From the NCBI GenBank assembly GCA_902603945.1, contig CACKWP010000004.1:1-64000 (forward strand): a DNA stretch of 64,000 nt, given 5' to 3'. The stretch's first letter is position 1; each line of letters opens with the position of its first letter. The notes beneath the pieces are model-generated. The model was given only the letters and a program-made list of their open reading frames with translations. It had not been told where the DNA came from and did not search any database. The stretch comes from an uncultured Pelagibacteraceae bacterium. Its GTDB lineage: Bacteria > Pseudomonadota > Alphaproteobacteria > Pelagibacterales > Pelagibacteraceae. The translations under genes and the position numbers were made by a program. This document shows, piece by piece, positions 14,455-35,325 of the stretch.

Positions 14455-14778
14455 ATGGCAATAAGTAACACAGCTAAATTTTCTATAGGTGAGGTCGTGA
14501 AGCATAGACATTTTGATTTTAGAGGAGTGATTTATGATGTTGATTTCGAATTTAACAACTCTGAGGAATGGTATCAATCTATTCCTAAAGAGGTAAGACC
14601 AAGAAAAGATCAACCTTTTTATCATCTATTAGCAGAGAGCAATGACGTAACTTATGAAGCTTATGTATCAGAACAAAACCTTCTTTTAGACCAGTCCAAA
14701 AAACCAGTTAAGCATCCATTAATTGAAGAGATCTTTTCTGGAAAAAAAGGCTCAAGTTATCTTAAAATTTCTAATTAA
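14455..14778 (+). CDS. hspQ: HspQ/YccV-like hemimethylated-DNA-binding heat-shock protein
   Basis: This 107-residue single-domain protein has FSIGEVVKHRHFDFRGVIYD, DQPFYHLLAESND and YEAYVSEQNL, diagnostic of the YccV/HspQ family. In E. coli HspQ binds hemimethylated oriC-region DNA and acts as a specificity-enhancing factor for Lon. It is followed by a 177-base non-coding stretch with RNA-like structure before ccmC, so it is probably not part of the ccm operon. Confidence 0.93.
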   Translation: MAISNTAKFSIGEVVKHRHFDFRGVIYDVDFEFNNSEEWYQSIPKEVRPRKDQPFYHLLAESNDVTYEAYVSEQNLLLDQSKKPVKHPLIEEIFSGKKGSSYLKISN

Positions 14779-14817
14779 TTTTAGTTGCCTAAAATTTAAC
14801 AATTTTTATTCAAATCC

Positions 14818-14846
14818 CCGACACAGAGAAATTGTAATTTTGTAAT
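14818..14846 (+). promoter_or_regulatory. Candidate sigma70-type promoter before the structured ccm leader
   Basis: CCGACA at 14818-14823 and TGTAAT at 14841-14846 are separated by 17 bases; the -10 box matches TATAAT at five of six positions. Predicted initiation near 14852-14853 coincides with the first base of a 13-bp stem. The -35 match is moderate, so this is a proposal from sequence only. Confidence 0.35.
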
Positions 14847-14851
14847 GTTTA

Positions 14852-14941
14852 GCCCAATTGAGAATATATTTCTTTAGTTATACTCCCTCCTATTTCTCAG
14901 TTGGGCCTATAATGTATCTTCACATGAAAAAAATATTATAG
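14852..14941 (+). ncRNA. Structured non-coding segment upstream of ccmC (sRNA or 5' leader)
   Basis: The arms GCCCAATTGAGAA (14852-14864) and TTCTCAGTTGGGC (14894-14906) pair over 13 bp. The single non-Watson-Crick position is G-U if transcribed on the plus strand but a C-A mismatch on the minus strand, which favours plus-strand RNA. The 29-base loop holds CTCCCTCCT, resembling the anti-Shine-Dalgarno. A second perfect 7-bp inverted repeat CTATAAT/ATTATAG (14907-14913 and 14935-14941) follows directly. There is no coding potential. It could be an independent small RNA or the leader of the ccm operon, 14 bases before ccmC. Confidence 0.45.
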
Positions 14942-14955
14942 TAGTTAAGAGTGAA

Positions 14956-15663
14956 ATGATTAAACTTTTAAATTTTAACAATATATTTTTCTGGATAGAG
15001 AAACTCATTAACTTTATCAGCTCGATTTTTTTTGTTTTTCTTTTAGTAGCACTATCATTTGCTTTAATTTTTTCTCCTCCAGATTATTTACAAGGAGATA
15101 GTGTAAGAATTATGTATATCCATGTCCCATCGGCCTGGATTAGTTTAGCTTCATTTACGTTTATAGCTTTGTTGTCAATTTTACATTTTTTATTTAAGAT
15201 TAAAAATTTAAAGCTTGTTATTAAAAGTATTGCTCCAATTGGTTTAATGTTTACATGTTTAGCATTAGTTACAGGTTCAATATGGGGGCAACCGACTTGG
15301 GGAACTTGGTGGGCTTGGGATGCAAGAATAACTTCGATGTCAATCCTAGCTCTTTTTTACATTGTTTTAATTTTAACTTATAAATTTGTATCAGAAGAGG
15401 ACAAAGCTAACAAAATTTCAAGTTTTATTGCTATATTAGGATTAATAAATATACCTATAATTAAATATTCAGTTGAATGGTGGAACACTCTTCATCAACC
15501 AGCGAGTATTAAGTTATCAGGATCAAGCACAATTCATTCATCTATGTTAACACCGTTATTACTTATGTTTTTTGTATTATTGCTGTATTGTGCGTTAATT
15601 TTTCTGATGAAATACAAGACAGAAATCATTAGAATAAAGAAAAAAAACTTGAAAAGATTATGA
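14956..15663 (+). CDS. ccmC: Heme exporter protein CcmC
   Basis: CcmC is the inner-membrane protein that loads heme onto CcmE in system I cytochrome c maturation. The 235-residue protein has six hydrophobic segments and the tryptophan-rich WWD motif WGQPTWGTWWAWDARITS near residue 120. It also has the flanking histidines in MYIHVPSAW and WWNTLHQPASI, expected to ligate heme. It opens the operon ccmCDEFGH; the usual ccmA and ccmB are not upstream in this window. Confidence 0.97.
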   Translation: MIKLLNFNNIFFWIEKLINFISSIFFVFLLVALSFALIFSPPDYLQGDSVRIMYIHVPSAWISLASFTFIALLSILHFLFKIKNLKLVIKSIAPIGLMFTCLALVTGSIWGQPTWGTWWAWDARITSMSILALFYIVLILTYKFVSEEDKANKISSFIAILGLINIPIIKYSVEWWNTLHQPASIKLSGSSTIHSSMLTPLLLMFFVLLLYCALIFLMKYKTEIIRIKKKNLKRL

Positions 15664-35218: not shown

Positions 35219-35325
35219 ACTTTCCGCAAATACTTAAGTTTTTGCGGTGCTCTTGAAAACAAGAGTGTCGACACTAGTCAGCGAAGGTTCGCCCACTAGT
35301 GCGATAGGTGTTGGACGTAATAAAA
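35219..35325 (+). ncRNA. Structured 5' leader of ffh with three consecutive hairpins
   Basis: Three stems are visible on the plus strand. First is CCGCAAA/TTTGCGG (35224-35230 with 35241-35247). Second is CTCTTG-AAAA-CAAGAG (35250-35265). Third is CACTAGT/ACTAGTG (35272-35278 with 35295-35301), which contains an inner GCGAA/TTCGC stem and can be extended by five more pairs (35266-35270 with 35302-35306) past one bulged A. There is no reading frame. The region ends just before the ffh ATG, so it may control ffh translation. It lacks the conserved 4.5S RNA core, so I do not call it SRP RNA. Confidence 0.55.

Follow-up and report, generated by a model that had tools for sequence, protein, structure and literature searches.

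A conserved hairpin behind hspQ appears to be a hitherto undescribed small RNA of the Pelagibacteraceae

The spacer between hspQ and ccmC in the window, i.e. the complete 64-kb stretch of DNA from a SAR11 genome assembly that was analysed, harbours a hairpin that, judged by its conservation, truly exists and is strongly selected as an RNA. It appears to represent a small RNA gene not described so far rather than a switch for the neighbouring genes. On balance, we lean towards a stand-alone small RNA gene with a regulated promoter, the product of which would work without Hfq and repress a few mRNAs by means of an anti-Shine-Dalgarno loop. Transcription regulators are scarce in SAR11 bacteria, and the mismatch between their mRNA and protein levels has been taken as a sign of post-transcriptional control; most structured RNAs recognised in them so far are leaders or riboswitches. 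An RNA gene that occurs as a single copy behind a regulated promoter of its own and persists in nine genera, its stem rewritten and its loop frozen, would make a strong candidate for a trans-acting core small RNA, and it would sit in an organism without detectable Hfq. Moreover, the analysis yields an exact probe, a predicted start site, and a short list of candidate targets.

In the window, the hairpin lies on the plus strand, as do its neighbours: upstream the hspQ/YccV-family gene (14455..14778; Pfam PF08755, E = 9.4e-30, and synteny), which served as the anchor in every locus used, and downstream ccmC (14956..15663; Pfam PF01578, E = 1.2e-31), which adjoins the hairpin in most genomes, though not in every one. 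The 177-base gap ahead of ccmC that the initial annotation had pointed out corresponds to the distance between hspQ and ccmC (14778 to 14956); its G+C content is 28% as compared to 37% in the hairpin. Inverted repeat, folding and covariation all identify the stem (5' arm 14852..14864, 3' arm 14894..14906); when re-derived from the window sequence it has exactly the extent annotated initially, 13 bp with a U-G pair as the only imperfect one. As judged from folding and the comparison of relatives, the stem encloses a large, pyrimidine-rich loop of 29 nt (14865..14893), and this loop exposes the anti-Shine-Dalgarno-like motif CUCCCUC (14883..14889) that had already been noticed as CTCCCTC. A second inverted repeat proposed further downstream (CTATAAT/ATTATAG, 14907-14913/14935-14941) did not hold as a structure: it comprises 9 bp in the window, yet about half of the same-genus relatives have no more than 3-5 bp of it, and in its 3' half the sequence is conserved whereas the pairing is not. 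This half falls into the segment CTTCAC.TAAAA..ATATTATAGTAG (14919..14944, plus strand), which is unpaired and conserved in sequence within the genus, and which is either the tail leading to the presumed 3' end of the RNA or the translation-initiation region of ccmC. No conserved leader open reading frame was seen in the spacer when judged by eye, and a model scan of the window's genome detected no second copy of the hairpin above noise.

The comparative evidence for the hairpin is far stronger than its single-sequence folding score (z = -3.3 against 200 shuffles, one of which folded equally well). The order hspQ - spacer - ccmC and the hairpin are retained in all 29 same-genus relatives compared. 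By anchoring on hspQ, other genera could be reached, and the hairpin was present 3' of this gene in 208 of 208 hspQ loci examined from nine genera of the Pelagibacteraceae. The spacers of the genera g5, g6, g7, g8, g9, g10, g12, and g14 contain the same hairpin and loop motif with a very different stem (e. g. CTGATCAAG/CTTGATCAG and GTCTGGTTTGG/CCAAACCAGAC). The idea of a structured RNA had been staked beforehand on compensatory changes, and it is by such changes that the 14-bp stem differs between genera: among 40 distinct sequences, two-sided changes were found at 14 of 14 stem pairs, with 95.9% of the cells paired and a covariation score of 0.681, as opposed to 0.369 for shuffled sequences and at most 0.21 in slid registers. 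All 208 hspQ-anchored stems outscore the best of 483 composition-matched shuffled controls, and CTCCC[TC] is present in the loop of 207 of these loci. Within the genus, every one-sided stem change yields a G-U pair if the plus strand is read as RNA but would be an A-C mismatch on the opposite strand, which identifies the plus strand as that of the RNA; the score of the hairpin model is far lower when the reverse strand is searched. In the order, the model R2, built from the aligned hairpin sequences, matches 320 of 398 genomes with about one copy each, all of them within one family, and this prevalence is an underestimate because R2 misses several genomes of g5, g7, and g8 in which the hairpin was read directly. 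Outside the family, 289 genomes of the class were scanned, and they contained one real locus (L171) and one false match (L172). L171 comes from a genome that is filed under another family and is a Pelagibacteraceae-like hspQ-RNA-ccmC locus with 85% hspQ identity, possibly as a result of contamination or a classification issue. One strict pattern found no match to the hairpin in viruses.

As suggested by a conservation profile of 154 distinct upstream sequences aligned on a conserved CAAA, the hairpin has its own promoter. The -10 box TAATTT (14835..14840, plus strand) represents the family consensus TAnnnT (T 94%, A 92%, last T 73%), and its spacing predicts a transcription start at 14847 (+/- 3 nt, plus strand), roughly 5 nt upstream of the stem in the window; in most loci, the hairpin begins 5 to 14 nt past the last base of the box. 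Upstream of the box, an 11-bp direct repeat of the operator-like form T-nn-R-n-CA-n-A occurs three to four times in tandem (14787..14825, plus strand; C at 14789, 14800, 14811, and 14822). The periodicity is evident both from the conserved positions (T at -16, -5, and +6, C at -11, 0, and +11, A at -10, +1, and +12, and in the window's genus a fourth C at -22) and from a self-similarity of 24.3 at lag 11, with no other lag exceeding 9.3. The initial annotation had assumed a CCGACA-N17-TGTAAT promoter with transcription starting exactly at the stem (14852). This string does exist in the window; however, it is not the promoter conserved among the 154 distinct relatives: CCGACA overlaps the last 11-bp repeat, TGTAAT differs from the conserved -10 box, and this box moves the predicted start to about 14847. 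OmpR-family regulators such as CenR (PMC9275681) bind direct repeats of 10-11 bp arranged in tandem, and the repeats found here are typical of sites for OmpR/PhoB-family response regulators; the promoter is apparently regulated. The PhoB, OmpR and ChvI-type systems are candidates for this control, since a PhoR/PhoB and an EnvZ/OmpR pair have been reported for SAR11 and the ChvG kinase was found in the proteome (PMC13198564). Matches to the operator pattern elsewhere in the window, which would have pointed to a regulon, were no more frequent than by chance.

It was initially left open whether the element is a small RNA or a regulatory leader for the ccm genes. The latter reading is weakened by genomes in which the two have parted: In two genomes of g10 (G310, G416) and one of g12 (G408), the promoter and the hairpin are located behind hspQ and followed not by ccmC but by a PagL-like gene (L100, L102, L153), which in the window follows ccmH. 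In these three genomes ccmC is found elsewhere, after ccmD and ccmE, with no CTCCC upstream within the stretch examined, and the hairpin has not travelled with it. The ccm genes of these genera are both relocated and reordered, to ccmD-ccmE-ccmC (L167, L168, L169). Conversely, in the genome G222 (L062/L164) a methyltransferase-like gene of about 800 bp lies between hspQ and the promoter of the RNA, and the promoter-hairpin unit is intact. As it is kept without the ccm operon and apart from hspQ, the unit is separable from both neighbours, and gene order indicates that the hairpin does not generally serve as a ccm leader, although it might conceivably act as a leader for any transcript that follows it. 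The small RNA reading is therefore the favoured one of the two.

We regard a cis-acting 5' leader as rather unlikely. In this case, the regulated promoter would drive ccmC and the genes behind it, and the hairpin would control translation or stability, for example via a loop-binding protein. In nearly all genomes ccmC starts at a fixed place 30-68 nt downstream of the hairpin, and the downstream segment is conserved in the genus. At least four U residues immediately follow the stem in 43 of 89 g6-like and in 4 of 54 other distinct loci, so that we reject the hairpin as an intrinsic terminator of hspQ; nor was a consistent terminator found after the stem in these loci, and read-through into ccmC is therefore likely in the window's genus. 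Finally, ccmC mRNA is increased about 10-fold in sulfur-limited stationary phase in P. ubique, according to a 2016 study (PMC5069961), and this rise could reflect the activity of the conserved hairpin promoter. All this would suit a leader, but in g10 and g12 ccmC does without the hairpin whereas the hairpin stays in front of the pagL-like gene, and the loop has no single conserved partner in the leader. One might also combine both ideas and assume that the 5' end of the ccm mRNA is processed to a stable hairpin small RNA. This would cover the promoter, the missing terminator and the loop conservation together; yet it requires a processing step and leaves the retention without ccm unexplained unless the small RNA part alone is selected, and we consider it improbable.

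For the favoured stand-alone small RNA, three hallmarks of a trans-acting anti-Shine-Dalgarno RNA were found, i. e. a conserved RNA structure, a promoter of its own (by conservation) in a separable unit, and a conserved unpaired anti-Shine-Dalgarno-like motif. We propose that the 11-bp repeats are the probable binding site of an OmpR/PhoB-family response regulator that switches the promoter on, and that transcription would begin about 5 nt ahead of the stem. The RNA would consist mainly of one stable hairpin, the large loop of which keeps CUCCCUC open for pairing with the GGGAG-type Shine-Dalgarno sequences of a few mRNAs; such pairing would stop ribosome loading with no need for Hfq. Indeed, the Hfq profile PF17209 had no match in 11 SAR11 genomes, and the positive controls were detected.

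That the loop can pair with Shine-Dalgarno sequences had been suggested at the outset, and its near-invariance fits this reading, whereas the targets are hypothetical. The loop would act on a minority of genes, since only 9 of the 47 window genes checked have a recognisable Shine-Dalgarno sequence. Four genomes belonging to two genera were screened for AGGGAG-N3-11-ATG ahead of open reading frames with 60 codons or more; this gave 37 sites, and exactly two genes had the site in all four genomes: those for proteorhodopsin (GAGGGAG) and AmtB (AGGGAG). The proteorhodopsin gene has GAGGGAG in 9 of 9 g1 genomes and in all g6 genomes checked. In two g8 genomes it has AAGGGAG, and their loop reads CUCCCUU; in g9, AAGGGAG faces CUCCCUC and the full match is short by one base. 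Several observations keep the targeting at the level of a hypothesis: AGGGAG near ATG is not enriched genome-wide (97 versus 94 in the control); the canonical hexamer AGGAGG, taken as a control with incomplete sampling, also gave two conserved genes, AtpE and Hsp20; the proteorhodopsin Shine-Dalgarno sequences are purine-rich in f2 genomes without the RNA, too; and the duplex energy of -16.6 kcal/mol is reached or nearly reached by the ribosomal anti-Shine-Dalgarno sequence and by two of the 47 window genes, whose pairing with the loop is about as strong as that of proteorhodopsin or AmtB. Both the AGGGAG-type sites of proteorhodopsin and AmtB and the AGGAGG sites of AtpE and Hsp20 are kept across genera (L286, L287, L294, L295, L288, L289, L378, L387). 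It is tempting to speculate that an Hfq-independent small RNA under two-component control tunes the translation of proteorhodopsin and AmtB via their unusual GGGAG sites in the whole Pelagibacteraceae, and unlikely as this far-reaching version is, it would amount to a core post-transcriptional switch between light energy and the uptake of nitrogen in bacteria that are more abundant in the ocean than any others. Alternatively, the loop might be read by a protein rather than by an mRNA, as a 5' stabilising hairpin or a site for a cold-shock protein or S1. The loop is pyrimidine-rich with two tracts, and CspE and CspL have been proposed as post-transcriptional regulators in SAR11 (PMC2864753); however, a plain stabiliser needs no near-invariant CUCCCU and no protein partner is known, which makes this explanation very unlikely. 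A chance inverted repeat or an operator palindrome acting at the DNA level, which the single-sequence folding taken alone would permit and nothing else favours, is refuted by the stem changes seen in nine genera, which are compensatory or lead to G-U pairs in the sense strand.

Related principles are known from other Alphaproteobacteria. In the alpha-r14 small RNAs (NfeR1 of Sinorhizobium; with AbcR1/2), which repress the translation of transporter and regulator mRNAs, the unpaired anti-Shine-Dalgarno motif CCUCCUCCC is ultraconserved and the stems vary (PMC10746234). The SAR11 RNA, with its frozen loop and drifting stem, follows the same pattern. However, the Rhizobiales RNAs have three hairpins with three CCUCCUCCC motifs and the SAR11 RNA one hairpin with one CUCCCUC core; no sequence homology between them is evident, and the SAR11 RNA has no Rfam match. 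ChvR of Caulobacter depends on ChvI but not on Hfq and pairs through stem-loops, with one site adjoining the start codon (PMC6237742). Response-regulator control, Hfq independence and stem-loop pairing are proposed for the SAR11 RNA as well, and SAR11 retains the ChvG kinase (PMC13198564); ChvR differs in its structure and has a single known target, and the Caulobacter ChvI motif TTGC-N3-GCAA is not the 11-bp repeat of SAR11. The alpha-R8 RNAs SisA-D of Caulobacter expose the single-stranded anti-Shine-Dalgarno 10-mer UUUCCUCCCU (PMC12559287), as the SAR11 loop does its motif, but they are Hfq-associated, carry the motif outside a hairpin loop and end with a Rho-independent terminator.

In P. 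ubique, candidate RNAs with conserved hairpins in long SAR11 spacers (ffh, rpsB, rpsL, pntA, rhtB, and others) were described by Meyer in 2009; Table 1 of that study, which required at least 26% G+C in P. ubique, does not contain the ccmC spacer, and in contrast to the RNA discussed here most of the RNAs described there are proposed cis-elements (PMC2704228). We found no description of the hairpin RNA in the literature. Shi et al. reportedly obtained unnamed small RNAs from ocean metatranscriptomes in 2009, and the hairpin RNA may have been detected earlier as such an unnamed transcript. The Rfam search that had been suggested for the locus returned no matching family at gathering or relaxed thresholds, only chance matches. 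No tRNA genes were found in the 64-kb window, and its sole Rfam gathering match is the ffh small RNA family RF01793 at 35257-35309 on the plus strand, just ahead of an open reading frame at 35308.
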